Numbered from the stretch's first letter, positions 2 through 19,733 are shown. The stretch is DNA of 64,000 nt from Candidatus Tectimicrobiota bacterium (GCA_016192455.1 JACPUC010000008.1:248001-312000), one strand, 5' to 3'. Translations and numbers: made by a program. The notes: generated from the sequence alone by a model not told the origin.

Positions 2-136
2 GGCGCGGGGCTGGATGAGGGTGGCCGCAGGCTGGCGCGGGCGGGCCCCGACCGTCCCTTTGCGCTCGCGCCGTTGGCGGCGCTCCTCTGCAACCGCGCT
101 GCGGAGAAGGCCACATGCACTCGAGTACCTTCGTGA
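2..136 (+). CDS. 3' end of an unidentified gene (partial)
   Basis: An open frame enters from the left edge and stops at 134-136, overlapping the start of the UbiA gene by about 20 bases. The 44 visible residues are rich in Ala, Arg and Leu and include LAPLAALLCNRAAEKA; I recognise no family. The stop-start overlap is the usual spacing for co-translated genes, so this may be the last part of an upstream operon member. Spurious open frames are common in DNA this GC-rich, so the call is weak. Confidence 0.3.
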   Translation, partial: GAGLDEGGRRLARAGPDRPFALAPLAALLCNRAAEKATCTRVPS

Positions 137-1071
137 GCTCCACCCGCACGCCACTGCTGACCTGGAAAGCGCTCCTCGGTCTTTCGCGCACCGTGCAGGC
201 GTCGCTGAGCATGGCGCAACCGATCCTCGGAGCGCTGGTGGCCTTGCTCGCCGTCCCCACGTGGCGGCAGGTGATCCTCGGCTTCATCGCCGTCTGGGCG
301 GGGAACCATGCGGCGTTTGCCACCAACGACCTGCTTGACTACCAGATCGACCGGCGGCGCTTCGAGCAGCAGCGCGCCCTGCGGGGGTTCGACATCGACG
401 CCACGATCGTGCGCCACCCCATCGCCCAGGGCTACCTGTCGCCGCGGCTGGCCCTGGGGTGGGTGCTCGTCCTCAGCGCCGTCACCCTGGTGTGCGCCAC
501 CCTCCTCAGCCCGATGGCCGCGCTCACCTTCGTGGTGGCGATGCTCCTCGAGGTCACCTACTGCAAGCTCCTCACCGTGACCCCCTGGAAGTTCCTCATC
601 ACCGGCGTGATGGTGGCCACCGGCGGGACGGCTGGCTGGTTCGCCGTGCGCAGCAGCATCGACTGGCCGGTCTTCCTCGCGTTCTTCGTCTGGATGGGGG
701 CGTGGGAGATCGGCGGGCGGAACATCGTCAACGACTGGTCCGACGTCGAGGAGGACCGCCGCCTCGGCATTAGGACGATGCCGGTGGTGTACGGCTTCAA
801 AGTGTCGGCGGCGCTCATCGTCTTCTTCCTGGTCCTCACCTTCGCGTCAAGCCTAGCCCTGGCAAGCGTCCTGGTCCTCCATCGTTCGTTCCTGATCGCC
901 GCCGTGGTCATCGGCGCCTATGCGCTCCTCCTCCCCGGCCTGCGGCTGCTGCGCGATCCGCAGCCGGAACGCGCCCTGGAGTTATTCAACCGCGCCAGCT
1001 TCTACCCCGCGGCGATGCTGGCGGCCCTGCTCGGCGTCCTCTACCTGCCAGCGTTGTTCAGCGCGCCCTGA
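115..1071 (+). CDS. UbiA-family membrane prenyltransferase
   Basis: 318-residue integral membrane protein of the UbiA superfamily, whose members transfer an isoprenyl chain to an aromatic or other acceptor. Both family Asp-rich motifs are visible: NDLLDYQIDRRR at residues 71-82 and NDWSDVEEDRR at 206-216. They bind the Mg-diphosphate of the prenyl donor. The rest is a series of about eight or nine hydrophobic helices. The start has a Shine-Dalgarno (ggagaagg) six bases upstream. Two flavin oxidoreductases of the phytoene-desaturase type follow, which suggests isoprenoid or carotenoid-like lipid modification rather than ubiquinone synthesis. The acceptor is not predictable from sequence. Confidence 0.85.
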   Translation: MHSSTFVSSTRTPLLTWKALLGLSRTVQASLSMAQPILGALVALLAVPTWRQVILGFIAVWAGNHAAFATNDLLDYQIDRRRFEQQRALRGFDIDATIVRHPIAQGYLSPRLALGWVLVLSAVTLVCATLLSPMAALTFVVAMLLEVTYCKLLTVTPWKFLITGVMVATGGTAGWFAVRSSIDWPVFLAFFVWMGAWEIGGRNIVNDWSDVEEDRRLGIRTMPVVYGFKVSAALIVFFLVLTFASSLALASVLVLHRSFLIAAVVIGAYALLLPGLRLLRDPQPERALELFNRASFYPAAMLAALLGVLYLPALFSAP

Positions 1072-1166
1072 GCCTCCCTGCCCTCCCGCGCCACGGCGGC
1101 GGGGGCGCCCCGTGCCGCAGAGGGAGAGGCGAGCGGCAAGGCTGGCAACCCGCGCGAGGTGAATCG

Positions 1167-2756
1167 ATGGCGGAGAAGACGGAGTATGACGTCATCATCG
1201 TGGGGGGCGGGCACAACGGGCTGACCTGCGGCGCGCTGCTGGCGCGGGCCGGGCTGGACGTCCTGGTGCTCGAACGGCGCCACAATATCGGCGGCGGCTG
1301 CTGCACCGAGGAGGTGACGCTGCCGGGGTTCCGGCATAACCTGCACTCGCAGGGGCACGTCTGGATGGTGCGGGGACCGGTCTACCGGGCGCTGCAGCTC
1401 GACAAACTCGGCGTCCAGTACGTCTACCCCGATCCGGTCTACGCCATGGTCTTCCGCGATGGACGCAGCCTCTGCCTTTACAAGGACCTCGACCGCACCT
1501 GCGAACAGATCGCCCAGTTCTCGAAGCGCGACGCCGACGCTTACCGCGAGCACTACCAGCGTTTCGAAGCGCTGCGCCGCCTGGTCATCTCCTCGTGGTA
1601 TGCGCCGCCGCTGCCGCCCTCGAAGCTCTTTGCGTCGCTGGAGGGGACCGAGGACGGCATGCGGGTGCTGCAGATGATGAACATGTCCACGGAGCGCGTC
1701 TGCCATGAGCTCTTCGAAGATGAGGCGGTGAAAGCCTGGATTCTCCTCCTGGCGATGCAGGGCGGCAACCCCCTCGACCTGAGCGGCACGGGGGTGTGGC
1801 TGACGGTCCTCGTCTCCGGTTTTCACGAACGCCCCTGGGGGATCTGCGTGGGCGGCTCGCGGCAGCTCGCCGAAGGCCTGCAGAAGGCCCTCGAGGCGGC
1901 GGGCGGCACGGTGCGCAAGCAGGCGCACGTGAGCCGCATCCTGGTGCAGCAGGGGGAGGCCCGCGGCGTCGAGCTGGCGGACGGCACACGGTACGCGGCG
2001 CGCCAGGCAATCGCCTCGAACACCAACCCCATCGCCACCTTCACCGAGCTCATCACCCCCGAGCACAGCGACGCCGCTTTCCTGCGCAAGGTGAAGAACT
2101 ACCAGGCGGATGACATGTCGCTCTTCACCCCCCACCTTGCCCTCAATGAAGCGCCGCGGTATACCGCCAGCGCCGGCAACCCGGACGTGCAGAAGGCGAT
2201 GTTCGTCGGTTGGGGCCAGGAGACGGTGGACGAGATGCACCAGCAGTTCAACGCCATCCGCCTGCGGCAGTTGCCGGAATCGGTGGGCGGCATGTCGATC
2301 GCCCCGACGGTGCACGATCCGACCCAGGCGCCGCCGGGCAAGCATACTGCCTTCTTCTGGCAGTTCGCGCCGTTCGAGATCGGCGACAGCGCCGCGGCCT
2401 GGGACCGGGAGAAGGAGGCGTACGCGGATCACTGCCTGGAGGTCTGGCGGCAGTACGCGCCGAACATGAACGCGGAGAACATCCTGGGACGCTACATCTA
2501 CTCGCCCCTCGACATCTCGCGGAACACCATCTCGATGTTCCGCGGTTCGCAGATGCACGGCTCCGTCGGGCCGCACCAGATGGGCGCGTTCCGGCCCTTC
2601 CCCGGCTGGTCCGGCTACCGCATGCCGATCAAGCGGCTCTACCTCTGCGGCGGCTCGACTCACCCGTGCGGCGGCGTCACCGGGGCGCCGGGGTTCAACG
2701 CGGCGGGCGTCATCGCCGACGATGTCGGGGTAAAGAAGTGGTGGCTGCGGGCGTGA
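1167..2756 (+). CDS. FAD-dependent oxidoreductase, phytoene desaturase/PYROXD2-like (paralogue 1)
   Basis: 529-residue flavoprotein. An N-terminal Rossmann dinucleotide-binding motif (GGGHNGL, residues 13-19, followed by VLVLERR) and a C-terminal FAD-binding segment (HPCGGVTGAPGFNAAGVIADD region) mark the phytoene desaturase/carotenoid isomerase/RetSat superfamily. It has no signal peptide or obvious membrane helix. It lies 95 bases after the UbiA gene and 95 bases before a close paralogue with the same domain layout. By family it would oxidise, isomerise or saturate C-C double bonds in a hydrophobic substrate. The two paralogues may act in sequence or as a heterodimer, but this is inference. 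Confidence 0.8.
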   Translation: MAEKTEYDVIIVGGGHNGLTCGALLARAGLDVLVLERRHNIGGGCCTEEVTLPGFRHNLHSQGHVWMVRGPVYRALQLDKLGVQYVYPDPVYAMVFRDGRSLCLYKDLDRTCEQIAQFSKRDADAYREHYQRFEALRRLVISSWYAPPLPPSKLFASLEGTEDGMRVLQMMNMSTERVCHELFEDEAVKAWILLLAMQGGNPLDLSGTGVWLTVLVSGFHERPWGICVGGSRQLAEGLQKALEAAGGTVRKQAHVSRILVQQGEARGVELADGTRYAARQAIASNTNPIATFTELITPEHSDAAFLRKVKNYQADDMSLFTPHLALNEAPRYTASAGNPDVQKAMFVGWGQETVDEMHQQFNAIRLRQLPESVGGMSIAPTVHDPTQAPPGKHTAFFWQFAPFEIGDSAAAWDREKEAYADHCLEVWRQYAPNMNAENILGRYIYSPLDISRNTISMFRGSQMHGSVGPHQMGAFRPFPGWSGYRMPIKRLYLCGGSTHPCGGVTGAPGFNAAGVIADDVGVKKWWLRA

Positions 2757-2851
2757 CACACGGGGGAAGGCACCCTCGAGCCTGGTGGGATGACGACGTC
2801 TCACCGGCAGGGTTGCTGCTTGTTCTGTGATGAGTGAAAGAGGAGAGGAGC

Positions 2852-4477
2852 ATGGCTGAAGAATACGATCTGATAGTCCTCGGAGGCGGTCATAACGGCC
2901 TGACGTGCGCCGGTCTCCTCGCCAAGGCCGGCTGGAGCGTTTGCGTCCTGGAACGGCGCCACAACATCGGCGGCGGCTGCGCCACCGAGGAGGTGACGCT
3001 CCCCGGCTTCAAGCACAACATCCACTCCCAGGGGCACGTTTCAATCAACACCGGCCCGATCTACAAGACCCTAGAGCTGGAGAAGCACGGGGTGCGGTAC
3101 GTGCATCCCGACCCGACCTGGGCCACCGTCTTCAAGGACAAGACGGGCCTCCTGCTCTGCCGCAGCGTCGATCAGACCTGCGACTCCATCGCCCAGGTCT
3201 CGAAGAAGGACGCCAAGACCTACCGCGACTTCTACAACCGCTTCGAGAGCCTGCGGCAGCTCTACGTGGCCTCCTGGTACTCGCCCCCGCTGCCGCCCTC
3301 TAAGATCTTCTCGGTGCTGGAGGGAACGCGCGACGGGCAGCTCCTCCTGCAGATGTGGAACGCGAGCTGCAAGGACATCGTGAACGGCTTCTTCGAGAGC
3401 GAGAAGGTGAAGGTGTGGATCATGATCATCTCCATGCAGGGGGGCAACCTCCTCGACCTGTATGGAGTCGGCGCCTACATCCCGATCCTCTTCACCGGCA
3501 TGCACACGAAGCCCTGGGGCGTCTGCGTCGGCGGCTCCCGGCAGCTCGCCGAGGGCCTGCAGAAGGCGGTCGAAGCGGCCGGCGGGGTGGTGCGCAAGAA
3601 CGCCCACGTCTCGAAGATCAACGTCGAGAACGGCCGCGCCGTCGGCGTCACTCTCGAGGACGGCACCTTCATCAAGGCGAAGCACGCGGTGGCCTCCAAC
3701 ACCAACGTCAAGGCGACCTTCCTCGACTACGTCGGCGAGGAGCACTGCGACGAGGAGTTCCTGCGCATGGTGCGGGCCTACCTGCCCGACGAGGTGGCGC
3801 CCTTCACGCCGCACTTCGCCCTCAACGAGGCGCCCCAGTACCTGGCGTCGAAGAATTGCCCGGACGTGCAGAAGGCGTGCTTCGTCGGCTGGGGCTGCGA
3901 GAACCTGCACGAGATGCAGATGCACGCCAACGACATCCGCGTCGGCATCCCCTCGAAGATCGTCCCCGGCTGCTCCATCTCCACCACCGTGCACGATCCC
4001 ACCCAGGCGCCCCCCGGCAAGCACACCGCCTTCGTCTGGCAGTACGCACCCTTCCACCTCGCGGAGGGCGGCGCCGAGCGTTGGGCGTCGTTCAAGGAGG
4101 AATACGGCGACCACGTCCAGAAGGTGTGGTGCGAGTACGCCCCGAACATGCAGGGGGACAACGTCCTGGCGCGTTACTGCTACTCGCCCCTCGACATCTC
4201 CCGCACCACGATCTCGATGTTCGAAGGTTCGATGAACCACGGCCATTGCAGCCCGAACCAGATGGGCATCTTCCGCCCCTTCCCGGGCTGGTCGCACTAC
4301 CGCATGCCGATCCAGGGCCTCTACCTCGTCGGTTCCTCGGCCCACCCCACCGGCGGCGTCACCGGCGCCCCCGGCTTCAATGCCGCCGGCGTCATCGCCG
4401 ACGACAACAAGCTCACCAAGTGGTGGTGGCGGCCCGGCAAGTCCTACAGCACCGAGCCGGCCGGCCGGCGCCGCTAG
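2852..4477 (+). CDS. FAD-dependent oxidoreductase, phytoene desaturase/PYROXD2-like (paralogue 2)
   Basis: 541-residue paralogue of the preceding gene, similar along its whole length. Shared features are GGGHNGL at residues 11-17, the CVLERRHNIGGGC segment, SWYSPPLPPSKIF and the C-terminal GGVTGAPGFNAAGVIADD. I place the start at ATG 2852, directly after the purine-rich Shine-Dalgarno agaggagagg; an in-frame GTG at 2834 lacks one. The gene ends just before a strong hairpin terminator, so the UbiA-FAD-FAD genes look like one transcription unit. Function is inferred from family only: redox chemistry on an isoprenoid-like or other lipophilic substrate. Confidence 0.8.
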   Translation: MAEEYDLIVLGGGHNGLTCAGLLAKAGWSVCVLERRHNIGGGCATEEVTLPGFKHNIHSQGHVSINTGPIYKTLELEKHGVRYVHPDPTWATVFKDKTGLLLCRSVDQTCDSIAQVSKKDAKTYRDFYNRFESLRQLYVASWYSPPLPPSKIFSVLEGTRDGQLLLQMWNASCKDIVNGFFESEKVKVWIMIISMQGGNLLDLYGVGAYIPILFTGMHTKPWGVCVGGSRQLAEGLQKAVEAAGGVVRKNAHVSKINVENGRAVGVTLEDGTFIKAKHAVASNTNVKATFLDYVGEEHCDEEFLRMVRAYLPDEVAPFTPHFALNEAPQYLASKNCPDVQKACFVGWGCENLHEMQMHANDIRVGIPSKIVPGCSISTTVHDPTQAPPGKHTAFVWQYAPFHLAEGGAERWASFKEEYGDHVQKVWCEYAPNMQGDNVLARYCYSPLDISRTTISMFEGSMNHGHCSPNQMGIFRPFPGWSHYRMPIQGLYLVGSSAHPTGGVTGAPGFNAAGVIADDNKLTKWWWRPGKSYSTEPAGRRR

Positions 4478-4761: not shown

Positions 4762-6678
4762 ATGGAAATCATCTCCAGCCTCGTCCGAACTGAAATCTCC
4801 GTCAGCAGCGTCAGCCGCGAGGAGGAGGAGTTCGTCGTCGAAGGCGAAACCCTCGGCATGCCGTCGAAGGTGTATGTGCGGCCGGAAGAGATCGGCGACA
4901 TGATCGGCGTCTTCCTGAGCTGGCGCGCCATCGCCTACTTTCTGCGCTGGCCGTTCCTCTACGCCCGCTGGTACCTCGAGCGCCAGGACCTCGAGCGCCA
5001 GCTCCGCTCCTTCGGCATCATCCTGTCGCTGAGCCTCATCGGCGTGCTGCTGCTGGGCGGGCGCGGCGCGCTGCGGGCCTTCCCCCTGCAAGGGGCGGCG
5101 GCGCTGCTGAGCTTCGCCGTCTTCGCCTTCGTCGCCGCACTCGTGACCGAGCGGCGCAGCCTCCTCTATGGCGCGGTGATGCTGGCGGAGGTCGCGGAGC
5201 ACCTCCTGCTGTACGCCGCCGGCGCCGAGGCCACGAGCTACGCGACGTGGGCCCTGGCTCCGCTGGCCGTCCTGGCGATCATCGGCTGGCTCCTGCAGCG
5301 GCGCGCCGCCGAGCAGGACGGGGGGAACCCCCACGCCAAGGCGCTCTTCCGCAACGGCTACATCCTCATCTCGTTGTATGCCGGCATCCTCCTCTGGTCC
5401 TTCGGATCGCACCTCAGCGCCGCCGCCTGGCGGCTCTACGTGCCGCTGCTCGGCTTTGCCGCCTATTTCCTGTGGCGCTTCGCCCTCACCCTGCGCCTGC
5501 CGCAGCTCTACTTCGGCATCATCTACCTGGCGCTCGGCTACGTGGTCCTCGTGCGCAGCATCCCCGGCATGCCCGCCGCCTACCAGGGCCTGCCGATCCT
5601 GGCCCTGGCCATCGGCATGATGCTCGTCGCCAGCTCCTACCATGAGGCCCTCGAGTTCCGCCGCCTGCACCCCCTCTACCTGGCCGGCATGATCCTGTCG
5701 CTGCTGGCGCTCATTCCGGTGCTCGACAGCCGCCTGGCGATGCTCCTCTACCTCGCGGCGATGGCCACGCACTACTTCTGGATGCACCGCGAAGGCGCCC
5801 GCAAGCTCACGGTTGATCAGCCCGGCGACCAGTTCGTGCTCTGGACCGCCTTCCTGTTCGCCAACGGCGCCGCCTACCTGGCGCTGCTCCTTTTCTTCCT
5901 TTACGGCTTCGAGCCCGCGCCGCTGATCCTCCTTGCCGCCCTGGCGTTCAGCCTCAATGAGCTGAAGATGGGCTTCGCCCAGCCGCGTTCTCTCTTCAGG
6001 CGGCGCACCCAGCACCTCTACTGGGCGGGCCTGTTCTGGACGGTGTTCGTGGCGGTGACGCTGCGCTGGCTGGGAAGTGCCCATCCATGGCCCTCGCGCG
6101 CCCCCTTCGCCGTTCCCTTCGTGGTCGTCGGCATCATGGTCGGCCTCTGGACCCTGCGGACCTACCGCGTGGAAGCCCAGCGTCAGCACCTCGGCCACTC
6201 CCTCCTTGACGCGAGCTACCTGCTGATCGCCGTGTCGTACCTGCTCCCGTCCGTCAGCGGCGAGACGCGCCTCGTCGCCTCGGTGGTCCTCACGATCCTC
6301 TACCTGCTCGTCTTCCTCATCCTCTACGGCGTCACCCAGGAGCCGTACCTCGTCCACGGCGTGACCGTGGCGCTCCTCTTCTTCCTCAGCCATCTCCTTG
6401 CCGGCCTGACGGCGCGTCCCCTGGCGCAAGCCCTCTTGCTGAGCGCCGTCGGTCTCCTTTCGATGCTGACGGTGCTGATCCGTCCGCCCGTGGCCGCGGT
6501 GCGCCGCCACACCCTCACCCTGTCCTGGTTCCTCCTCAGCGGGCTGGCGCTCTACGCCGCGCTCCCCTCGCATCGCGCCACCCTCCTCGTCAGCACGATC
6601 TGGGCCGCGGCGTATCTGCTCGGCAGCGTGGCCGTGGAGCGGGCCACGCAGGCCACGCCCCAGAACGCGTCCTCATAG
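4762..6678 (+). CDS. Polytopic membrane protein of unknown family, about 20 helices
   Basis: 638 residues. The first 80 or so are soluble and acidic (SREEEEFVVEGE) and the rest is an almost unbroken run of about 20 predicted membrane helices. I see no transporter, hydrogenase or respiratory-complex motif. Internal units recur in the form LYFGIIYLALGYVVLVR, and the same style of unit (SFLYLGNALLALGYLLLVR) appears in the N-terminal membrane part of the next gene, so the two are probably related. The frame stays open far upstream only because the DNA is GC-rich: before 4762 it overlaps the real flavoprotein in another frame. The next gene starts nine bases after the stop. Possibly a membrane subunit for electron or quinone transfer; not identified. 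Confidence 0.75.
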   Translation: MEIISSLVRTEISVSSVSREEEEFVVEGETLGMPSKVYVRPEEIGDMIGVFLSWRAIAYFLRWPFLYARWYLERQDLERQLRSFGIILSLSLIGVLLLGGRGALRAFPLQGAAALLSFAVFAFVAALVTERRSLLYGAVMLAEVAEHLLLYAAGAEATSYATWALAPLAVLAIIGWLLQRRAAEQDGGNPHAKALFRNGYILISLYAGILLWSFGSHLSAAAWRLYVPLLGFAAYFLWRFALTLRLPQLYFGIIYLALGYVVLVRSIPGMPAAYQGLPILALAIGMMLVASSYHEALEFRRLHPLYLAGMILSLLALIPVLDSRLAMLLYLAAMATHYFWMHREGARKLTVDQPGDQFVLWTAFLFANGAAYLALLLFFLYGFEPAPLILLAALAFSLNELKMGFAQPRSLFRRRTQHLYWAGLFWTVFVAVTLRWLGSAHPWPSRAPFAVPFVVVGIMVGLWTLRTYRVEAQRQHLGHSLLDASYLLIAVSYLLPSVSGETRLVASVVLTILYLLVFLILYGVTQEPYLVHGVTVALLFFLSHLLAGLTARPLAQALLLSAVGLLSMLTVLIRPPVAAVRRHTLTLSWFLLSGLALYAALPSHRATLLVSTIWAAAYLLGSVAVERATQATPQNASS

Positions 6679-6687
6679 GAGGCGCCC

Positions 6688-8517
6688 GTGAAGCTGCGCG
6701 ATGTCATCCTCTGGGTGGGGCATCTCCTCGTCCTCGCCGCCCTCATCTACCAGACGGCGCAGCGCTCGCAGGCCGGCGTCATCGGGGTGGCGCTCGCCAT
6801 GAGCGCGGTCTACTACGTGAGCGCGGCCGTCGCCCGGCGCGAAAGCTTCCTCTACCTCGGCAACGCCCTCCTGGCCCTCGGCTACCTCCTCCTGGTGCGC
6901 TTGGTGGGGACGCTGGAGATAGCGCTCCTCCTGGCGCTGCCGGTGGTGGCGGTGCTCTCCATCCTGGGCGTGGCCTTGGTTCGGCGCGAGCTTCCCCGGC
7001 ACGCGGAGGCCTGCGACTGGGTGGCCCACGCCGCCGGCATCGGCGTGAGCGCCGCCGTCGTGATGTACGCGCCGCGGCTGCAGGGCTACGCGGCGGTGAT
7101 CGTCGCGCTGCTCCTCTACGCGGCGCTCTACCTCGGCCTGTGGCGCTTGCGCCGGCAGCACTGGTTCCTCCTCGCCGCCACGCTCGCCGCGGGCCTTGCC
7201 TGGTACTTCCTCGTGCTTGCCCTCTGGCCCGGCTCGCCGGCGGTCGCCGCGGCGCTGCTGGCGGCCGTGGCGGCGGTGGCGGCCCTGAAGGGACGCTATG
7301 TCTGGCGGCGGCGTGGGGTCGATCGCTCGGCGCCGGTTTACACTGGAGCCTCCATCCTCGCCCTCGTGGCCACCATGGTGGCGTTCTTCACCCTGCCGCA
7401 CGGGGCGTCCGTCCCCACTTACCTGGTGGCGGCGCTCGCCCACACCCTGGTGCTGGCGTATGCCCGCCGGGACGAGGTCGTTTACCTCATCACGTACACG
7501 CTCGGGCTGCTGGCGTGGAGCTTCATCCGCCTCTCCGGCGGCTCTTTCCTGCATGCCATGATGGATGATTTCCTCTATTCCCTTCTCGTGGCCGGCGCCA
7601 TCTTCCTTTACCCCGCCGTGCGCACCGTGCTGCGCTATCGCTGGTCGCTGGCGGAGTGGCTGACGCGCGGCCACCAGCGCGTCCTCTACATCGGGCTGGG
7701 GGCGGTGCTGGCGGTGCTGGCCTGGGATGCCGCGTGGATCAACGCCACCGCCGAGAATCCCAACTTCTGCAACTCCTGCCACACCATGCAGCCAATGGTG
7801 GCGACGTGGCGGCAGTCCAAGCACAGCCAAGTCGGGTGCGACACGTGCCACTACGCGCCCGGCGTGACCAACACCGTGCGCGGGCGCATCACCGGCCTCA
7901 TGATGGTGGCGCAGACCGTCACCGGCCGCTACGGCACGAAGGCGCACGGCAATGTCGTGGATGCCTCCTGCCAGCGCGCCGGCTGCCACAGTCTCGCCTC
8001 GTTGACGAACACCACGGTCATCGCCCCCAAGGTTCGCTTCAACCACATCGTCATGTTGGCGCTGCCACAGGAGAAGACCCGCGGCATTGATTTGAAGTGC
8101 GTTACCTGTCACACCCATGCCGTCGAGGGGCCGCACTTCGCGGCGCAGCCGGCGGTCTGCTACCTCTGCCACCTGATGAATCCGAAGCCGGAAACCGGGG
8201 TCGGCGTGGGAACATGCCAGAACTGCCACCTGCAGACGCCGCAAGAGCTGCGGGCCGCCGGCCAGGCCACGGTCGGCAACGGCGAGGTGGACGAGGAGCG
8301 CTGTCTGCGCTGCCACCTCAAGAGAGAGGGCATCAAAGAGGCGCAGCGCCTGCACGACCTCCACATCAGCGGCAACGAGGACTTCACGAGGGGGAAGACC
8401 GAGTGCTTCGATTGCCACCGGGTCATCCGCCACGGCAAGGGTGACCCGTTCGCCTTTCCGCAGAAGCCCGTCGTCAGCGCGGCGCCATCCCAGCAGGCCC
8501 AGGCTGACCGGCGCTAG
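6688..8517 (+). CDS. Membrane-anchored octahaem cytochrome c, NapC/NirT-like, with large N-terminal membrane domain
   Basis: 609 residues. Residues 1-350 hold about 13 predicted membrane helices; the rest is a periplasmic multihaem domain. Seven CXXCH motifs are visible (CNSCH starting at residue 361, then CDTCH, CVTCH, CYLCH, CQNCH, CLRCH, CFDCH at 573-577), plus one CX4CH (CQRAGCH), giving eight likely haems. The stretch after the first haem (NSCHTMQPM...SKHSQVGCDTCH) is typical of NapC/NirT/NrfH quinol dehydrogenases, which normally have one membrane helix and four haems. The large extra membrane domain is unusual. The GTG start follows the Shine-Dalgarno AGGAGG at 6677-6682. Likely role: passing electrons between membrane quinol, the partner upstream and a periplasmic acceptor. 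Confidence 0.85.
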   Translation: MKLRDVILWVGHLLVLAALIYQTAQRSQAGVIGVALAMSAVYYVSAAVARRESFLYLGNALLALGYLLLVRLVGTLEIALLLALPVVAVLSILGVALVRRELPRHAEACDWVAHAAGIGVSAAVVMYAPRLQGYAAVIVALLLYAALYLGLWRLRRQHWFLLAATLAAGLAWYFLVLALWPGSPAVAAALLAAVAAVAALKGRYVWRRRGVDRSAPVYTGASILALVATMVAFFTLPHGASVPTYLVAALAHTLVLAYARRDEVVYLITYTLGLLAWSFIRLSGGSFLHAMMDDFLYSLLVAGAIFLYPAVRTVLRYRWSLAEWLTRGHQRVLYIGLGAVLAVLAWDAAWINATAENPNFCNSCHTMQPMVATWRQSKHSQVGCDTCHYAPGVTNTVRGRITGLMMVAQTVTGRYGTKAHGNVVDASCQRAGCHSLASLTNTTVIAPKVRFNHIVMLALPQEKTRGIDLKCVTCHTHAVEGPHFAAQPAVCYLCHLMNPKPETGVGVGTCQNCHLQTPQELRAAGQATVGNGEVDEERCLRCHLKREGIKEAQRLHDLHISGNEDFTRGKTECFDCHRVIRHGKGDPFAFPQKPVVSAAPSQQAQADRR

Positions 8518-8588
8518 CCGGGCGCCCTGGGGATTCGCCCCGGCGCCTGGCCCGCCGGGCGACCGACCTTAACGCAACCCCGGCCCCT

Positions 8589-10604
8589 GTGTGCGTCGCG
8601 CGCGGGCAGAGGGGGCCGGGGAACGATGATCCCCATGGCGAGCTGCCGCGTGATCCACCCCGAGCCGAGGGCGCCGACGTTGCCTTGAACCCCACACCCT
8701 CCTCATTCGACCCCAACTCTTCTCCTCCCGCAGCCGGGGGATGGCGTCTTTTTCTGGCGCTCTCCCTCCTCGTGCTCCTTGCCTACGGCCTGGCGCTGCG
8801 CAACGGCTTCGTCTTCGACGATGTCGCGACGATCGTCGCCAACAGCCTTATCACGGACTGGCGCACCTGGCCCGATCTTTTCAGCCGGCGCTACTTCCTC
8901 CTGGCCCAGGAGGCCAGCTACCGGCCGGTCGTGACGCTCACCTACTACCTCGACTACGCCCTCTGGGGACGCAATCCCGCCGGCTTCCACCTCACCAACC
9001 TGCTCCTCCACCTTGCCGCCGTGCTCCTCCTGTATCGTTTCGCGGCGGGCGTGCTGCGCGCTCCGCGGGTCGCCGCCTGGGCAGCGGCGCTCTTCGCGGC
9101 GCACCCGATGCTCAGCGAGGCGGTGAACGCCATCAGCTTCCGCGAGGACCTCCTGGCGCTCGACTTCATGCTGCTGGCGCTCCTCTGCCTGCCGCCGGCG
9201 CAGCGCGGTGGGAGAGGCCAGGCGTGGGGGCTCGCCGCCGCGCTCGTCGCTACCGCCCTGGCCCTGCTGAGCAAGGAGATGGCCGTCACCCTGCCGCTCC
9301 TCGCCATCCTCGCGCACCGTGCGGCCGCGCGTGCGGCCCCTCCGGCGGGGTCCGCGGCAGCCCGGCGCGCGAGCGCCCGGCGGCGGAGCTGGCCCGCCTT
9401 CAGCGCCCTCAGCCTGCTGACGCTGCTCTACCTCGGGCTGCGCTTCACCCTGCTGCAATCGCAGACCGAGCGCCGGCTGCACCTGCCGCACGTCGGGGCG
9501 CTCGCCAGGCTCCTCACGGCGGCGCAGGTCGTCCTCTCCGATATGCTGCAGATGCTCTGGCCCGCCGCGGCCCAGGTTGAGTACCCGGCCCGCTACGCCA
9601 CGCCGGACCGCATGATCGCCTGGGCGGCCCTCGTCCTCGTCGGCGCCGCGCTGCTGGGGACGGCGCGGCTGTGGCGGCGCTCGCCAGGCCTGGCCTTCGG
9701 CCCGGCATGGTTCTTCGTGACCCTGGCGCCGGTCAGCAACCTCGTGGCGATCAGCCACCTGAAGGCCGACCGCTACCTCTACGTGCCGGCGCTCGGCTAC
9801 GCGCTCTTCGCCGCCTCGCTGGCGGAGAAGCTTGGAGCGCGAGGCTGGCCGCGGCGGGGCCGTTCAGGCAAACCTTCCCGCTTGGCCGCCGCGGTCCTGA
9901 CGCTGACCCTCATGTGCTACGTCCCCCTGAGCATGGCGCGCGCGGGCCGCTGGCGCAGCGACGCACACCTCTGGCGCGGCGCCCTTCAGGAGCGGGCCCC
10001 GGGGGCGCGGTCCCTGAACAACCTCGGTCTCACCTATGCCGAGCGGCTCGCCCACGACAAAGCGTTCTACCTCTACGCGCGGGCGCTGCGGGTCGATCCC
10101 CGCTACCAGGTGGCCTGGAACAACCTCGGCAACGCGCTGCTCTCCCGGGGGCGGAAGGATCGCGCCGCTTTGGCGAGCCAGCGGGCGCTGCTGCTTGACC
10201 CGGCCTATGCCCACGCCCATACTACCCTCGGCGTGCTCCTGGAGGAGCGCGGCAGGCTGGAGCAGGCGCTGCGTCACTATGCGCAGGCCGCCGCCCTCAA
10301 CCCCGGCCTGAGCAGCCCGCTCAACAACATCGGGGTCATCTTCTTCAAGACGCAGCGCTGGCGGAAAGCCCTCGCCGCCTTTCGCCAGGCGCAGCACCTG
10401 GAGCCGGGCAACCTCCAGGCCGCCGAGAACGCCGCCGGAACCCTCTACCGCCTGGGTCTCCCCGAACGCGCCCTGGCGGCGTACCGCTTCGTCCTCAGCC
10501 GACAATCGGGAAACGCCGCGGTGCGCGCGAACGTGCGGGCCCTTGAACGGCTGCTGCGGACGCGCCGCCGCGGCACGGTTCCCCCAGACCCCCACGGCCC
10601 ATAG
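8589..10604 (+). CDS. TMTC-like GT-C glycosyltransferase with TPR repeats (copy 1)
   Basis: Up to 671 residues; the true start is uncertain. GTG 8589 gives the longest form and TTG 8685 a form closer in length to the two paralogues. The N-terminal part is polytopic and opens with LRNGFVFDD, an acidic first-loop motif typical of GT-C (PMT/TMTC-type) glycosyltransferases that use lipid-linked sugars. The last 190 or so residues form five or six TPR repeats (for example NNLGNALLSRGRKDRAALASQRALLLDP). First of three tandem paralogues. A stretch of about 440 bases (8856-9296) is almost identical to copy 2 (10758-11197), while flanking parts are much more different. Acceptor and sugar are unknown. 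Confidence 0.75.
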   Translation: MCVARGQRGPGNDDPHGELPRDPPRAEGADVALNPTPSSFDPNSSPPAAGGWRLFLALSLLVLLAYGLALRNGFVFDDVATIVANSLITDWRTWPDLFSRRYFLLAQEASYRPVVTLTYYLDYALWGRNPAGFHLTNLLLHLAAVLLLYRFAAGVLRAPRVAAWAAALFAAHPMLSEAVNAISFREDLLALDFMLLALLCLPPAQRGGRGQAWGLAAALVATALALLSKEMAVTLPLLAILAHRAAARAAPPAGSAAARRASARRRSWPAFSALSLLTLLYLGLRFTLLQSQTERRLHLPHVGALARLLTAAQVVLSDMLQMLWPAAAQVEYPARYATPDRMIAWAALVLVGAALLGTARLWRRSPGLAFGPAWFFVTLAPVSNLVAISHLKADRYLYVPALGYALFAASLAEKLGARGWPRRGRSGKPSRLAAAVLTLTLMCYVPLSMARAGRWRSDAHLWRGALQERAPGARSLNNLGLTYAERLAHDKAFYLYARALRVDPRYQVAWNNLGNALLSRGRKDRAALASQRALLLDPAYAHAHTTLGVLLEERGRLEQALRHYAQAAALNPGLSSPLNNIGVIFFKTQRWRKALAAFRQAQHLEPGNLQAAENAAGTLYRLGLPERALAAYRFVLSRQSGNAAVRANVRALERLLRTRRRGTVPPDPHGP

Positions 10605-10613
10605 CTCACCCCC

Positions 10614-12542
10614 GTGTCCTGGCCCATGCGTCATGCACGCCGCTTCGTCATCCCGGCAGCGCTGGCGCTGCTGGTGCTTGCCGCCTACGGTCTGTCGCTG
10701 CGCAACGGCTTCGTCTACGACGACAACCTCACCGTCGTGGACAACGCGCTGATCAAGGACTGGCGCACCTGGCCCGATCTCTTCAGCCGGCGCTACTTCC
10801 TCCTGGCCCAGGAGGCCAGCTACCGGCCCGTCGTGACGCTCACTTACTACCTCGACTACGCTGTTTGGGGACGCAATCCCGCCGGCTTCCACCTCACCAA
10901 CCTGCTCCTCCACCTCGCCGCCGTGCTGCTCCTCTATTATTTCGCGGCGGGCGTGCTGCGCGCCCCGCGGGTCGCCGCCTGGGCGGCGGCGCTCTTCGCC
11001 ACGCACCCGATGCTCAGCGAGGCGGTGAACGCCATCAGCTTCCGCGAGGACCTCCTGGCGCTCGTCTTCATGCTGGCGGCGCTCCTCTGCCTGCCGATGG
11101 CGCAGCGCGGTGGGAGAGGCCGGACCTGGGGCGTCGCCGCCGCGCTCCTCGCTACCGCCCTGGCGCTGCTGAGCAAGGAGATGGCCGTCACCCTGCCCAT
11201 CTTAGCGATGCTGGTCGACGCGGCGCGTGGCGCGCCGCAGTGGGCACCGGCGGTCGCAGGCGCGCGGCCCGTGGCAAGTGGGGGACAACGCCCGCGACGC
11301 GGCGGCGAAACAGAGAAAAGGAGCCTCTCCCTCTATGTCGGTCTCTTCGCCCTGTCGGTCGCCTACCTGATCCTCCGCTTTGGTCTCTTGCGCGCTTCCA
11401 TCGAGCCGCAACCTTTGCCGGCGGTCGGCTGGCCGGCACGCCTCCTCACCTCGGCAAAGATCACCCTGGCGAACATGCTGCAGATGCTCTGGCCCGCCGA
11501 CATGAGCCCGGATTACCGGCTGACCTACGCCACCGCCGGCGACCTGCTCGGCTGGGCGGCTCTCGGCATGGTGCTCCTCACACTCCTTGGCGTCCTCCGG
11601 CTTTGGCGGCGGCAGCCGTTGCTGGCACTCGGGCCGGCGTGGTTCTTCGTCGCCCTGGCTCCGGTCAGCAACCTCGCAGCACTCGCGCAGCCCAAGGCTG
11701 ACCGCTACCTCTACGTCCCGGCGGTTGGATTCTGCCTCTTTGCGCCGTCACTCCTGCACCACCTGCTCGGCCGCCGACCCGCCGCCTCGCCGCCGGGAGA
11801 TTCCAGCGCGCCGCGCGGCGCGGTGCCACTGCCGCCGGCGTGGCTCTCCAGGCGTCTCATGCCCCTCCTCCTGCTTGCCACCCTGGCCTGCTACCTGCCG
11901 CTCAGCGCGGCGCGCAGCGCCATGTGGCGGGATTCCGTCTCCCTCTGGCGCCGCGCCGCGTCGTCATCCCGGCCGACGGCCCGCGCGCTCATCAACTTCG
12001 CCTATGGCTCCCACGAGCGCCGCTCCCGTGACCGCGCCCACCACCTCTTCCTGCGCGCCGCGCTGCTCGAGCCCCGCAGCGCCGCGGCGTGGAGCAACCT
12101 CGCGTACCTCATGATGGAGCGCGGCCGCAACGACCGCGCCGTCATCCTGGCGGCGCGGGCCCTTCGGAGCGATCCAACCTATGCCCTCGGGCACCTGAAC
12201 TTCGGAGTGCTCCTGGAGCGCCGCGGGCGTCTCCGCGGGGCCATCCGCCGCTACCTGCTCAGCACCGCTCTTCATCCCGGCTATCAGGGGGCTTACCACA
12301 ACCTCGGCGTCGTCTTCGGCGCCATCGGCCAGCAGACGAAAGCGCTCGCCGCCCTGCGCCACGCTCAGTACCTGCGGCGCGACCATCCCGCGACGGCGAA
12401 CCTGATCGCCGACACGCTCTACCGGCTTGGACTCCACGAGCGTGCCCTGACCGCGTATCGTTACGTCCTGGCGCTGCAGCCGCAGGATGCCAGGGTTCGG
12501 CAAAACGTCCTTTTCCTCGAACGCCAGTTTGGCCGGAAGTAG
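10614..12542 (+). CDS. TMTC-like GT-C glycosyltransferase with TPR repeats (copy 2)
   Basis: 642 residues with the same layout as its neighbours: N-terminal helix, LRNGFVYDD loop motif, about ten further helices and a C-terminal TPR array. The start lies nine bases after the previous stop. GTG 10614 and ATG 10626 are both possible and neither has a good Shine-Dalgarno, so translation may be coupled. It shares a near-identical DNA block with copy 1 and two shorter near-identical blocks with copy 3 (13000-13060 and 13086-13169), which makes it the bridge in what looks like gene conversion. Confidence 0.75.
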   Translation: MSWPMRHARRFVIPAALALLVLAAYGLSLRNGFVYDDNLTVVDNALIKDWRTWPDLFSRRYFLLAQEASYRPVVTLTYYLDYAVWGRNPAGFHLTNLLLHLAAVLLLYYFAAGVLRAPRVAAWAAALFATHPMLSEAVNAISFREDLLALVFMLAALLCLPMAQRGGRGRTWGVAAALLATALALLSKEMAVTLPILAMLVDAARGAPQWAPAVAGARPVASGGQRPRRGGETEKRSLSLYVGLFALSVAYLILRFGLLRASIEPQPLPAVGWPARLLTSAKITLANMLQMLWPADMSPDYRLTYATAGDLLGWAALGMVLLTLLGVLRLWRRQPLLALGPAWFFVALAPVSNLAALAQPKADRYLYVPAVGFCLFAPSLLHHLLGRRPAASPPGDSSAPRGAVPLPPAWLSRRLMPLLLLATLACYLPLSAARSAMWRDSVSLWRRAASSSRPTARALINFAYGSHERRSRDRAHHLFLRAALLEPRSAAAWSNLAYLMMERGRNDRAVILAARALRSDPTYALGHLNFGVLLERRGRLRGAIRRYLLSTALHPGYQGAYHNLGVVFGAIGQQTKALAALRHAQYLRRDHPATANLIADTLYRLGLHERALTAYRYVLALQPQDARVRQNVLFLERQFGRK

Positions 12543-12698
12543 TCCCGCAGGGCGCGTCCGCCGCGGCAGCCGGCGCTTCGAGATGCTCAGCAGGATGCGG
12601 CGGGGAAGCTCTGGCGCAGGCGTGAAACGACCGCAGCGACCAGGGCGGCGCTGACGGCGCAGCGGCTAGGGTTCCGAGGAAACGGAGAGAGGACGCCT

Positions 12699-14564
12699 GT
12701 GCTCGGCTCGACATTCCGTTTCGCAGCGCTCAAGAGCCCCGCGGTGCTGCTCGGGCTGGTGGCGGCGGCGTACGGCGTGTCGCTCCGCAACGGCTTCGTT
12801 TTCGACGACGCCACGACCATCGTCGAGAACGCCTTGCTGCGGGACTGGCGGTCGTGGCCGGCCCTCTTCTCGCCGGAGTATTTTCGCGCCGCCGGCGAAG
12901 CGAGCTACCGGCCCATCGTGACGCTCACCTACTACCTCGACTCCGTCCTCTGGGGGCTGAATCCCACCGGCTTTCACCTCACCAACCTGCTCCTCCACCT
13001 CGCCGCCGTGCTGCTCCTCTATTATTTCGCGGCGACCGTCTTGCGTGCTGCGCAGGCGGCCACCTGGGGGGCGGCGCTCTTCGCCGCGCACCCGATGCTC
13101 AGCGAGGCGGTGAACGCCATCAGCTTCCGCGAGGACCTCCTGGCGCTCGTCTTCATGCTGGCGGCGCTCTGTTGCTTGCCTGCCGCCTCGAGGGGCGAGC
13201 TGCGCGGCGTGCTGGGTCTCCTGGGAGCCTGGCTGGCGACGATCCTGGGCCTGCTCAGCAAGGAGATGGCCGCGACGCTGCCGCTGCTGGGCCTCCTCGC
13301 CATCCTCCTCGCCGGCAGGAAGACCGCTGGGAACGCCGCGACCCAGGCGCCTTCTCGCCGCCGTTGGCAGACGGCCTTCGTCGGCGGGGCGCTGCTGCTG
13401 ACGGCGGGGTACCTCGTGCTGCGCCTTGGACCCCTGCGCTCGGACATCGAGCTGCGCCAGGAGCTGCCGGCGGTGGGGCCCGTGGCGCGGCTGCTCACGG
13501 CGGCCACGATGGGGCTCGCCGCGCTGCTCCAGATGCTCTGGCCCGCCGGCATGAGCCCGGACTACCACGCCGCCTTTGCTACCCCCGCTCGCCTCCTCCC
13601 CTGGGTGGCGCTGATGGTTGTCCTGGCGCTGATCGCGGCAATCTTCCTCCTGTGGCCGCGGCAGCCTCACCTCGCTTTTGGGCTGAGCTGGTTTGTCGTC
13701 AGCTTCGCTCCGGTGAGCAACCTCGTGCCGCTCAATCACCTCAAGGCCGATCGCTACCTCTACGTGCCGGCGGCCGGTTTCTGCCTGGCGGCGGCGCTCC
13801 TGGCGAAGAAGGCGCCGCGCGCGCTCCATCCCCCGGCCTGGCGTTGGCCGCGGCTGGCGCCAGAAACCCTCCTCCTCGTCTTCGTGCTCGCCTGCTTCAT
13901 CGCGGGAAGCGTTGGGCGCAGCCTGGTCTGGCGGACCGATGAGAGCCTCTGGCGACAGGCCGCCGGGGCCGCCAGGCCGTCGGCGCGAACGCTCGCCAAC
14001 CTTGGCCTCAGCCTCTATGAGCGGGGCGCGTACGACCGCGCCCATCTCTTCTTCCTGCGAGCGCTCCATGAGGAGCCGGGGGCGGCGCTGCCCCTCTCGA
14101 ACCTCGGCTTCACCCTTTACCGGCGAGGGGTTCTGGACCGCGCCCAGCTTGCCGCGGCGCGCGCCCTCCGCCTTGACCCGTCGATCGCGCGCGCCCATAC
14201 TATCGCCGGCGTGCTGGCGGAGCGGCGGGGGCGGCAGGGGCGGGCGCTGCGCCACTACCGCAGGGCGGCCGCCCTGCGGCCCGGATACAGCCGCCCGATG
14301 CTGAACGCGGGGATTCTCTACTTCAAGCAGCGGCAGCTCCACAAGGCGCTTGCGAGCTTTCGTGAGGGAGAGTTCCGGGGCGGCGATCTCCTCGTCGCTC
14401 GAGAGAATATCGCCGCGACGTTCTACCACCTCAAGGAGCCGCGGCGGGCCCTCGGGGTCTATCGGGACCTGCGGCGCTTGCACCCTTATCTCGCGCCGGT
14501 GCGGCAACGTATTCAACTCATCGAGCGCGAGCTCGGTGAGGGCGCGGCGCACGACCGGCGCTGA
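12699..14564 (+). CDS. TMTC-like GT-C glycosyltransferase with TPR repeats (copy 3)
   Basis: 621 residues. The GTG start has a good Shine-Dalgarno (gagagagga) six bases upstream. It has a polytopic N-terminal half with LRNGFVFDD and the conserved EAVNAISFREDLLAL segment, then C-terminal TPRs. Its overall DNA is more different from copies 1 and 2, except for short blocks that are nearly identical to copy 2. A 156-base gap separates it from copy 2. Likely role: membrane glycosyltransferase with a TPR protein-binding arm, by analogy with the bacterial TMTC/PMT-like family. Confidence 0.75.
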   Translation: MLGSTFRFAALKSPAVLLGLVAAAYGVSLRNGFVFDDATTIVENALLRDWRSWPALFSPEYFRAAGEASYRPIVTLTYYLDSVLWGLNPTGFHLTNLLLHLAAVLLLYYFAATVLRAAQAATWGAALFAAHPMLSEAVNAISFREDLLALVFMLAALCCLPAASRGELRGVLGLLGAWLATILGLLSKEMAATLPLLGLLAILLAGRKTAGNAATQAPSRRRWQTAFVGGALLLTAGYLVLRLGPLRSDIELRQELPAVGPVARLLTAATMGLAALLQMLWPAGMSPDYHAAFATPARLLPWVALMVVLALIAAIFLLWPRQPHLAFGLSWFVVSFAPVSNLVPLNHLKADRYLYVPAAGFCLAAALLAKKAPRALHPPAWRWPRLAPETLLLVFVLACFIAGSVGRSLVWRTDESLWRQAAGAARPSARTLANLGLSLYERGAYDRAHLFFLRALHEEPGAALPLSNLGFTLYRRGVLDRAQLAAARALRLDPSIARAHTIAGVLAERRGRQGRALRHYRRAAALRPGYSRPMLNAGILYFKQRQLHKALASFREGEFRGGDLLVARENIAATFYHLKEPRRALGVYRDLRRLHPYLAPVRQRIQLIERELGEGAAHDRR

Positions 14565-14664
14565 CCCCCTCGCCGGGCGCCGGCCGGTCCTTCCCCGCGC
14601 GGCGCCGCCCGGCTGAGCTGATCGCGACACCCTCGGCCGCCTCCCTCCTCAAGGTGGGCACCCC

Positions 14665-15582
14665 ATGTTGGCGCTCTCCACCGCCTGGCTGTCGGCAACC
14701 GTGGACGATGGGCTGGTCCTCCTTGACCGCATTCGCGGCCTGGAACGGCTCGAGGTCATCGAGCTGGACGCGCGCCTGAGCCCGGCGATGCTTGAGGTGA
14801 TGCTCATGGTGGTGCGGGCCAAGGAGCTGCGGGTGGCGTCCCTGCATGCCCCCTGCCCGGTGCCCGTGGAGGTCGATCGGCTGGCGGCCGACCGGGAGCT
14901 GCAGTTGAACCATCCCGATCGCGACGAGCGCGCCCGCGCCCTGGCGGCGGCGGCGGCCAGCATCGATTTGGCGGCGGAGCTCGAGGCGCCGGTGGTGACG
15001 ATCCACCTCGGCCGGGTGGAACTCACGGGGGAGATCGGCAAGTTGCGGGCGCTCTTCGATGACGACCGAATCGACACCGAGGAGGCCGCGGCGGTGCGGG
15101 CGGAGCTGCTCGAACGGCGCGCCGCGGCGGCGGCGCCCTACCTCGACGCAGCCCGCTTCAGCCTCGAGGCGCTGCTCGAAGGCGCGCGTCGGCGTGGCAT
15201 CTGGCTGGCGCTGGAGAATCGTCCGGTCTTCTACGAGATGCCCGACCCGGAGGAGCTGGAGGTGCTCTTCACGGAGTTCGCGGGGTCGCGGCTGCGCTTC
15301 TGCTACGACGCGGGGCATGCCGCCGTTCAGGAGACGCTAGGCTGGACAACTCAGCGCGCGCTCCTGGAGGCGCACCGCGAGGTGCTCTGCTGCGTGAACC
15401 TCCACGATGCCCGGGGCTACCGCAACAAGCTCATCGACGAGCGCCGGCAGACCGACTACGGGCTGCTGCGGCAGTTCGTCACCCCGGCGACGCCCTGCGT
15501 CATCGAAGTGGAGGGGGTGGAGGACGAGCAGCTCCTCGAGTATGTGGACTTCCTCGAGGGGCAGGGCTTCAGCCTGCGTTGA
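14665..15582 (+). CDS. Sugar phosphate isomerase/epimerase-like TIM-barrel protein
   Basis: 305 residues with the AP-endonuclease-2/xylose-isomerase-like barrel pattern: SLHAPCPVP near residue 70, VTIHLGRVE, a GIWLALENRP strand, CYDAGHA, CVNLHDARG, and a C-terminal VIEVEGVE. These contribute the His/Glu/Asp metal ligands of the family. Members isomerise or epimerise sugars, inosose or hydroxypyruvate, or cleave DNA; the substrate cannot be read from sequence. ATG 14665 follows aaggtgg. It starts about 100 bases after the last glycosyltransferase gene and may be co-transcribed with it. Confidence 0.7.
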   Translation: MLALSTAWLSATVDDGLVLLDRIRGLERLEVIELDARLSPAMLEVMLMVVRAKELRVASLHAPCPVPVEVDRLAADRELQLNHPDRDERARALAAAAASIDLAAELEAPVVTIHLGRVELTGEIGKLRALFDDDRIDTEEAAAVRAELLERRAAAAAPYLDAARFSLEALLEGARRRGIWLALENRPVFYEMPDPEELEVLFTEFAGSRLRFCYDAGHAAVQETLGWTTQRALLEAHREVLCCVNLHDARGYRNKLIDERRQTDYGLLRQFVTPATPCVIEVEGVEDEQLLEYVDFLEGQGFSLR

Positions 15583-15603
15583 GGAGGCGGGGTGCGGCGC
15601 CGC

Positions 15604-16455
15604 TCAGCGGGCGGCAGCATAGCCCGCCCGGCGCAGCGCCTGGAGGAGATTGTGGCGGGCGGCGCCAATCCGCAGCCGCAGCGTCGCCGCATCGCGGCCG
15701 TGGGCGGTGAGGAAGATGCGCAGCCGGCCGCCGGCCTCGAAGCCGGTGGCATCGGTCTTCAGGTGGATGTCCGGGTAACGCCGGCGCAGCGGCTCGATAA
15801 GGCCGCTCAGGACCGTCTCGTCATTGCAGCCGCTGTCGAGCTCCGCTTCGTGGTAGGCGTGCGCGCCGAGCAGCGCCCGCAAGAGGGGCAGCACGGACTC
15901 GGTGAAGATGGCGCGCAGCTCCGCGGGCACCCCGGGGAGACAGAAGAGATGACTGCCCCGCCGCGTCAGGTGCACCCCCGGCGCCGTGCCGACGGGGTTG
16001 GCGAGGATGACGCCGCCGCGCGGCACAATCGCCATCTTCTTGCGGGGCGCGGTCAGCCGACCGCTGCGCAGGAGACCCGTCGCATGCAGATGTCGGTAGC
16101 GGGCGCGGACGTGCTCGAACGCCTCAGGATTGAGCTCGAGCGGGCGCCGCGCCGCGCGGGCGACCGCGATGAGGGTGGCGTCATCGTAGGTGGGGCCAAG
16201 GCCGCCGGTCATGAAGAGGAAGCGCGTGCGGCGACGCCAGGCGGCCTGCAGCTCCGCGATGATCGTCGCTGCCTGGTCATCGATGACGCTGATGCGTTCG
16301 AGCTTCCCCCCAAGCATCGTCAACTGACCGGCCAGCCAGTGGGAGTTGGTATCGAGGGTGCGCCCCAGGAGCAGCTCCCGGCCAATGGCGATGATCGCGC
16401 AGGTGGGGGGGGCGTCGCCGACGGAACTCTCGGTCGTACTTCGAGCTGATGGCAT
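15604..16455 (-). CDS. CinA-like molybdopterin-binding domain protein
   Basis: 283 residues. It has the MoCF-biosynthesis/CinA N-terminal fold, with IIAIGRELLLGRTLDTN near residue 22 and the signature GGLGPTYDD at 84-92. It lacks the C-terminal CinA deamidase domain, so it is the short form. CinA-type domains hydrolyse ADP-ribose or act in pyridine-nucleotide recycling in characterised members; here the role is not fixed. ATG 16455 is preferred over GTG 16467 because GAGGA lies five bases before it. Its 5' end overlaps the divergent eIF-2B-like gene by seven bases, so the two promoters must lie inside each other's coding sequence. Confidence 0.75.
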   Translation of the reverse strand: MPSARSTTESSVGDAPPTCAIIAIGRELLLGRTLDTNSHWLAGQLTMLGGKLERISVIDDQAATIIAELQAAWRRRTRFLFMTGGLGPTYDDATLIAVARAARRPLELNPEAFEHVRARYRHLHATGLLRSGRLTAPRKKMAIVPRGGVILANPVGTAPGVHLTRRGSHLFCLPGVPAELRAIFTESVLPLLRALLGAHAYHEAELDSGCNDETVLSGLIEPLRRRYPDIHLKTDATGFEAGGRLRIFLTAHGRDAATLRLRIGAARHNLLQALRRAGYAAAR

Positions 16456-17411: not shown

Positions 17412-17480
17412 GACGATCCCCCGAGCATCCCGCCGCGGCCCACCCCGCGTGCTGCCCGTCCGGCGCCGACCGGGCCGTGC

Positions 17481-17777
17481 CTACGTCCTCAGGACGTAGG
17501 TGGCGCTCTGGGGATTCCTGGCGTAGGTACGGAAGAGGCCGATGATGCGCTGACACTCCGGCTCGGTCTTCGTCAGCCCCAGTGACCGCCGCATGCTGTC
17601 GGCATCCTTGAAGATCATGATCTTCAGGAACTTCGTCGGCTCGGCGTCGTTGGCGAAGATGTCGTAGGCCTCGCAGCCGTGCTCTTCCCAGTAGGGCTTG
17701 ATCTGCTCACGCGTGAGGCGCAGGTACTCGTCAACACTTCCAGCATCCACCTCGAAGGTAAAGACCACGCGGTACAT
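17481..17777 (-). CDS. Dimeric alpha/beta-barrel (ABM-like) protein
   Basis: 98 residues in the size and pattern of antibiotic-biosynthesis-monooxygenase/quinol-monooxygenase-type barrels: an N-terminal strand (YRVVFTFEVDAGSVDEYL), a central helix (LTREQIKPYW) and a strand EPTKFLKIMIF. Such proteins act as dimers in small-molecule oxidation or haem handling. A strong Shine-Dalgarno (AAGGAGGAG) precedes the ATG. A 10-bp perfect inverted repeat (17480-17489 and 17491-17500, CCTACGTCCT/AGGACGTAGG) covers the stop codon and could terminate transcription from this gene and the convergent eIF-2B-like gene. Confidence 0.6.
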   Translation of the reverse strand: MYRVVFTFEVDAGSVDEYLRLTREQIKPYWEEHGCEAYDIFANDAEPTKFLKIMIFKDADSMRRSLGLTKTEPECQRIIGLFRTYARNPQSATYVLRT

Positions 17778-18355: not shown

Positions 18356-18391
18356 CGCTGAATCCTCTCTCCGCACCTGCGCGCCGCCGCG

Positions 18392-19684: not shown

Positions 19685-19733
19685 CAGGGGGCTCCTGCGC
19701 AAGCGGCTCGCGGAGAGCTTTGGCGTGGTTGGT

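Follow-up and report, generated by a model that had tools for sequence, protein, structure and literature searches.

Gene layout, topology and the repeated membrane array

Two neighbouring genes on the plus strand of the window (the whole 64,000-nucleotide stretch of Candidatus Tectimicrobiota bacterium DNA that was analysed) encode a polytopic membrane protein, here called P1, and a membrane-bound octahaem cytochrome, P2 (Table 1). As stated in a first-pass annotation made from the sequence alone, the genes are nine bases apart (6679-6687), and P2 joins about 13 membrane helices to a NapC/NirT-type domain with eight haem motifs, one of them CX4CH; the other seven are CX2CH. Since homologues of both exist in other phyla, P1 and P2 are real genes and not chance reading frames.

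Table 1. Coordinates of the gene pair and its features within the window.
Feature	Position	Strand	Remark
P1, 638-aa polytopic membrane protein, ~20 helices, first half of the array	4762..6678	+	ATG 4762 to TAG 6678
Cytosolic N terminus of P1 (residues 1-76), with three predicted strands and a helix	4762..4989	+	
P1 membrane array, ~five four-helix repeat units	4990..6675	+	
AGGAGG, likely P2 ribosome-binding site, overlapping the P1 stop codon	6677..6682	+	sequence
P2, 609-aa membrane octahaem cytochrome	6688..8517	+	GTG start 6688
13-helix membrane part of P2 (residues 1-355; ~three four-helix units and a NapC-type anchor helix)	6688..7752	+	
NapC/NirT N-terminal region, P2 residues 334-420	7687..7947	+	Pfam Cytochrom_NNT
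Haem motif 1, CNSCH	7768..7782	+	CX2CHXM type
Haem motif 2, CDTCH	7837..7851	+	
Haem motif 3, CQRAGCH	7969..7989	+	CX4CH
Haem motif 4, CVTCH	8098..8112	+	
Haem motif 5, CYLCH	8158..8172	+	
Haem motif 6, CQNCH	8215..8229	+	
Haem motif 7, CLRCH	8302..8316	+	
Haem motif 8, CFDCH	8404..8418	+	

P2 has 13 helices, whether counted by hydropathy or from the helix pattern of its predicted model. For P1, simple hydropathy counts 18 helices and the model helix pattern counts 20 after the cytosolic start; the latter agrees with the 20-helix protein originally annotated, and the loop charges fit. Lysine and arginine residues in alternate loops number 27 versus 9 in P1 when 20 helices are counted and helix 54-71 is kept out of the membrane, a figure that hinges on that helix, as counting it as membrane gives 14 versus 21. 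The corresponding values are 21 versus 4 in P2 (13-helix count) and 54 versus 11 over the 33 helices of a fused homologue from genome G265. The comparison covers these three proteins; the simple helix count was too low for a second fusion (30, genome G389) and for the P1 homologue of genome G206 (18). These charges fit an N-in orientation with 20 + 13 helices and the haem domain outside. Covalent attachment of c-type haem requires the haem domain to be outside. AlphaFold2 models built from two-sequence alignments had pLDDT values of 46 (P1) and 38 (P2), too low to test contacts or sites. The N-terminal stretch of P1 occurs only in the two P1 copies of this genome, between which it is 52% identical over 81 residues (whole P1, about 31%), and a search of this stretch against the PDB gave no convincing match.

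The membrane parts of the two proteins resemble each other. An hhalign comparison of a seven-row P1 profile with a seven-row P2 membrane profile gave an E-value of 3.3e-13 and a score of 105 over 248 columns, against 35-37 for reversed profiles and less than 16 for column-shuffled ones. Similar repeated units in both membrane parts had already been remarked on in the first-pass annotation, and a relationship between these parts is now strongly supported at the level of sequence. Within P2, an off-diagonal self-match at a shift of about 105 residues scored 54 (reversed control, 27); within P1, the shift was about 112 residues and the score 68, with a weaker contrast to its reversed control (49). 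These self-matches are consistent with a four-helix unit of which P1 has about five copies and P2 about three, the precise count being our estimate.

No convincing family was found for P1 in Pfam or NCBIfam, or for the membrane part of P2 in Pfam, and profiles of the array matched no solved structure in the PDB. P1 thus keeps its initial description as a protein of no recognisable family, and no close homology of this 638-residue protein to a known transporter family emerged from these three databases. The membrane proteins with an SCO7613 C-terminal domain (NCBIfam NF047321) bear a weak likeness to the P2 repeat of one member (best E-value, 8.6e-6), but of the seven members just one gives a match, which stays under the curated cut-off, and sub-cut-off matches also occur in control genomes; this relationship proved too weak and is kept as a lead only. 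No account of an array of this kind turned up in a search of the open-licence literature.

Among the seven homologues compared, the helices contain no conserved histidine pair, acid or base. The conserved charges of the array are located in loops or close to them, one histidine near a helix end is shared by six of the seven, and a search of the helices of these homologues for b-haem ligands of the CbcL or HydC type found no conserved histidine pair. This makes a b-type cytochrome or a charged ion path unlikely, and these readings, like that of a known transporter, were rejected for want of a family match and of any conserved in-membrane residue. A redox-driven transporter or ion pump, in which electron flow through the haem domain powers the array, would account for the pump- or transporter-like size and helix number, and two fused copies of the pair (see below) adjoin an anion-symporter-like gene. 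The empty transporter searches of Pfam and NCBIfam, the lack of a PDB profile match and the absence of a conserved buried charge among the seven homologues make it quite improbable. Polytopic membrane proteins joined to c-type haems could also be read as an apparatus for cytochrome maturation or haem handling with a haem domain of its own. This is highly improbable, given that no CcmF/CcsA-type family was matched, that the membrane part has no conserved histidine pair, and that related copies have respiratory neighbours.

Pairing and fusion of P1 and P2

A second P1-P2 pair is found on contig C19 of the same genome, where the frames overlap by four bases and the proteins are 31% (P1) and 42% (P2) identical to those of the window over their aligned parts. 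An overlapping pair is also present in G206, which belongs to another phylum, while in G265, from a third phylum, a single protein of 1358 residues holds both P1 and P2. Such fusions, of about 1240-1360 residues, occur in four of the nine genomes of that third phylum (G265, G386, G387 and G389). A P1 profile (A5) run across 386 genomes, a sample with few members per phylum, matched only in the genome under study (G000), G206 and G265; P1 was therefore never seen without a polytopic P2 in these 386 genomes. At every locus found (two in G000, one in G206 and the four fusions), P1 and polytopic P2 stand together or are fused, and the gene pair picked out in the first-pass annotation is thus conserved in relatives. 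A single-sequence search with P1 of 98 genomes gave no match beyond its own genome, a result that the seven-row profile later showed to be due in part to which genomes had been sampled. Searches of the phyla around G042 (4 genomes), G014 (1 genome) and G107 (12 genomes) gave no match, nor did a search of plasmids and viral contigs. The only match in a single-sequence search of genome contigs was a weak, NapC-like one in Arcobacter, a one-helix tetrahaem frame.

Because other bacteria have both genes fused, P1 and P2 almost certainly work together, and their forming one functional unit is strongly supported by these sequence comparisons. Were they instead an unrelated transporter gene and cytochrome gene that adjoin by accident, the absence of a recognised family for P1 would be no surprise. 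The probability of such an accident is very low in view of the natural fusions, which in substance refute it, the pairing kept across phyla and the repeat common to P1 and the membrane part of P2.

Haem domain, gene neighbours and the quinol question

NapC-type cytochromes are regarded as one-helix adaptors. The haem domain of P2 scores 32.5 bits against Pfam Cytochrom_NNT (gathering score, 24.1) and also exceeds the cut-off of Cytochrome_C7, while its NCBIfam scores are sub-threshold for both NrfH (46.8 of 134.2 bits) and NapC (12.3 of 310.6 bits). Its closest solved relative in the PDB is NrfH (2j7a). Relatives of the haem domain were found by profile search in 40 of the 386 genomes, and nearly all of the loci read encode proteins with one helix and 10-22 CX2CH motifs; polytopic forms were confined to G000, G206 and G265 among these loci. 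Most members of the wider one-helix family have CX4CH as their third haem motif, in the same haem register; the motif characterises that family as a whole and is not peculiar to P2. The proteins of the window and of C19 lack four of the twelve haem motifs present in those of G206, G265 and G389. As many one-helix relatives have twelve or more haems, the octahaem form is probably a reduced one. In a tree of the haem domain, the polytopic forms fall on one side of a single branch (support 82/52; 84% of bootstrap trees), which would be compatible with a single origin.

The pair in the window is flanked by two carotenoid-type FAD proteins and by TPR membrane proteins; no respiratory gene lies next to it, and no Rieske protein, cytochrome b or FAD/Fe-S subunit is encoded with it. 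The C19 pair is followed by genes for a GltD-like FAD and 4Fe-4S protein, a Rieske protein, a cytochrome b and a cytochrome c. HdrC-, HdrB- and HdrA-like genes follow the fused gene in G265 and, as assigned from reading the sequence, in G389. The fused genes of G386 and G387 adjoin an anion-symporter-like gene (likewise from sequence reading), and no redox gene adjoins them within the stretch that was read. An Hdr partner does not depend on the array, since a one-helix relative in G206 also precedes HdrC- and HdrB-like genes. Other one-helix relatives have neighbours, assigned by sequence reading and not by profile, that include Rieske/cytochrome b genes (loci L014 and L017), a Rieske gene (L018), an HdrB-like gene (L025) and elsewhere b-type cytochromes. 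The P1-P2 pair probably serves respiratory electron transfer.

The CX2CHXM motif at haem 1, which supplies Met49 in NrfH, is kept in P2 (Met367) and is invariant in the seven polytopic homologues. Both Asp89 and Met49 are described as indispensable to menaquinol oxidation by NrfH (PMC10654088). The alignments place no acidic residue at the Asp89 position in P2, in its polytopic homologues or in the one-helix relatives, and the position of NrfH Lys82 is occupied by Arg400 in one alignment and by Gly399 in the other. Because Asp89 has no acidic equivalent, direct quinol oxidation at haem 1 is not supported by this test. P2 could nevertheless act directly on quinol, as dehydrogenases of the NrfH/CymA kind do, oxidising it at haem 1 with the array as an enlarged quinol site. 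The Cytochrom_NNT match above cut-off, NrfH as the closest solved relative, the invariant CX2CHXM motif and a basic residue near the Lys82 position (depending on the alignment) all speak for this reading; the missing acidic counterpart of Asp89 in P2 and in the one-helix relatives speaks against it, as does the C19 operon, whose Rieske/cytochrome b pair could already take on quinol oxidation. We consider it possible but doubtful. The quinol-linked complex put forward in the first-pass annotation is accordingly borne out in part: Rieske/cytochrome b or Hdr genes beside related copies and the kept CX2CHXM motif are in its favour, while the non-conservation of Asp89 and the lack of an adjoining respiratory partner for the window copy are not.

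Proposed working and comparison with known systems

With moderate confidence, P1 and P2 are proposed to be the two halves of one inner-membrane multihaem electron-transfer complex that is anchored by the array, the array acting as a scaffold. For this organism we infer the physical complex, the direction of electron flow, the partner and the role of the array. The 20 + 13 helices (about 33) would form about eight four-helix repeats and one anchor helix, this last helix leading into a periplasmic NapC-like octahaem domain. That domain would be a reduced form (eight of twelve haems) of a widespread NapC-like multihaem family and would do the same kind of job. Electrons may enter or leave at haem 1, by the membrane, through the quinone pool or a quinol-oxidising partner, and the haem chain would carry them towards a partner in the periplasm or back from it. 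Partner subunits could dock on the array, which may also help to form a pocket open to quinone. Neither a histidine pair nor a buried charge is conserved in the array, so that a redox centre within it and ion pumping by it are both improbable; it is solely this absence of conserved residues that makes a scaffold or docking role the more likely one. A bolder possibility, which we think unlikely, is that the array is an energy-converting membrane module of a new kind, in which an uncharged four-helix-repeat scaffold links the periplasmic haem wire to cytoplasmic flavoprotein or Hdr complexes by way of an internal quinone path free of b haem; it would then represent a previously undescribed class of transmembrane electron-transfer complex.

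We rate the pair as a variant of the NapC-like multihaem electron-transfer subunits that rests on an undescribed family of membrane repeats. A haem domain of the NapC kind is joined here to about 32 extra helices of that family, in at least three phyla, and some copies of the pair or fusion stand beside Hdr or Rieske/cytochrome b genes. The exchange of electrons between cytoplasm, quinone pool and periplasm by such complexes is a question in anaerobic energy metabolism, and the natural fusion of about 1240-1360 residues offers a single-chain target for structural work. In anammox bacteria, Rieske/cytochrome b complexes that form NAD(P)H have been proposed, and the available part of that account describes those of Kuenenia as containing hexa- or octahaem cytochromes and an NAD(P) oxidoreductase (PMC12954380). 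The C19 operon resembles them, as far as that part goes, in joining a Rieske protein, a cytochrome b, a GltD-like FAD/Fe-S protein and a multihaem cytochrome. It differs in its large membrane array, of which the same part of the account gives no description, and the window copy stands alone.

Like P2, ImcH of Geobacter has several helices ahead of a NapC-like multihaem domain. ImcH homologues have three helices and a CX3CH motif adjoining the membrane domain (PMC6295460), whereas P2 has 13 helices, CX2CH as its first motif, CX4CH as its third, and P1 as a partner. P2 shares with the NapC/NirT/NrfH/CymA quinol dehydrogenases a NapC-type first haem region that follows a membrane helix. Unlike these one-helix, four-haem proteins, P2 has 13 helices, a 20-helix partner and eight haems, one of them bound by CX4CH. 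The one-helix NapC-like cytochromes of other phyla, with 11-18 haems (C22 of this genome; L014-L040), share the haem register with P2 and in most cases have CX4CH in third place; their genes adjoin those for Rieske/cytochrome b, Hdr or b-type cytochromes. They differ in having one helix, no P1 partner and mostly at least 12 haems, where P2 has eight. These one-helix multihaem cytochromes are the true family of the P2 haem domain.

Neighbours of the P1–P2 pair in the window

Upstream of P1, the roughly 20-helix membrane protein, lie a UbiA prenyltransferase and then two similar CrtO/CrtI-like FAD proteins. Shortly 3′ of P2, the octahaem NapC-like cytochrome, three closely similar membrane proteins are encoded consecutively, apparently a tandem triplication. 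Elsewhere in the window, a single protein joins a haem-binding domain of the ethylbenzene-dehydrogenase type to a cytochrome c domain of the cbb3 type.

Features around the P1–P2 pairs and on other contigs
Feature	Locus	Position	Strand	Length (aa)
UbiA prenyltransferase; two CrtO/CrtI-like FAD proteins	window	115-4477	+	529, 547 (FAD proteins)
Three membrane proteins with C-terminal TPR repeats	window	8589-14564	+	671, 642, 621
Haem-binding/cytochrome c fusion	window	26145-27731	+	
HdrD/DsrK-like protein	L005 (G000:C19)	18156-19952	-	
NapC-like/Rieske-like/cytochrome b-like cluster	L006 (G000:C22)	6731-17734		
FrhB-like F420 hydrogenase/dehydrogenase beta subunit; cytochrome c552-like multihaem protein	L044 (G206:C20)	1419-4457	+	

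The pair in another phylum

All relatives of the Tectimicrobiota genome (G000) among the sampled genomes are kin at domain level only, and thus no other member of its phylum appears to be in the sample. In G206, from another phylum, the FrhB-like subunit and the cytochrome c552-like protein lie directly 5′ of the pair.

Redox genes on other contigs of the genome

The HdrD/DsrK-like protein, encoded approximately 9 kb from the second P1–P2 pair (contig C19), contains both CCG and 4Fe-4S domains, and its N-terminal helices are hydrophobic. On contig C22, as read from sequence, the gene of a one-helix multihaem NapC-like protein shares a cluster with genes that resemble those for Rieske protein and cytochrome b; several other multihaem cytochromes are encoded there too.
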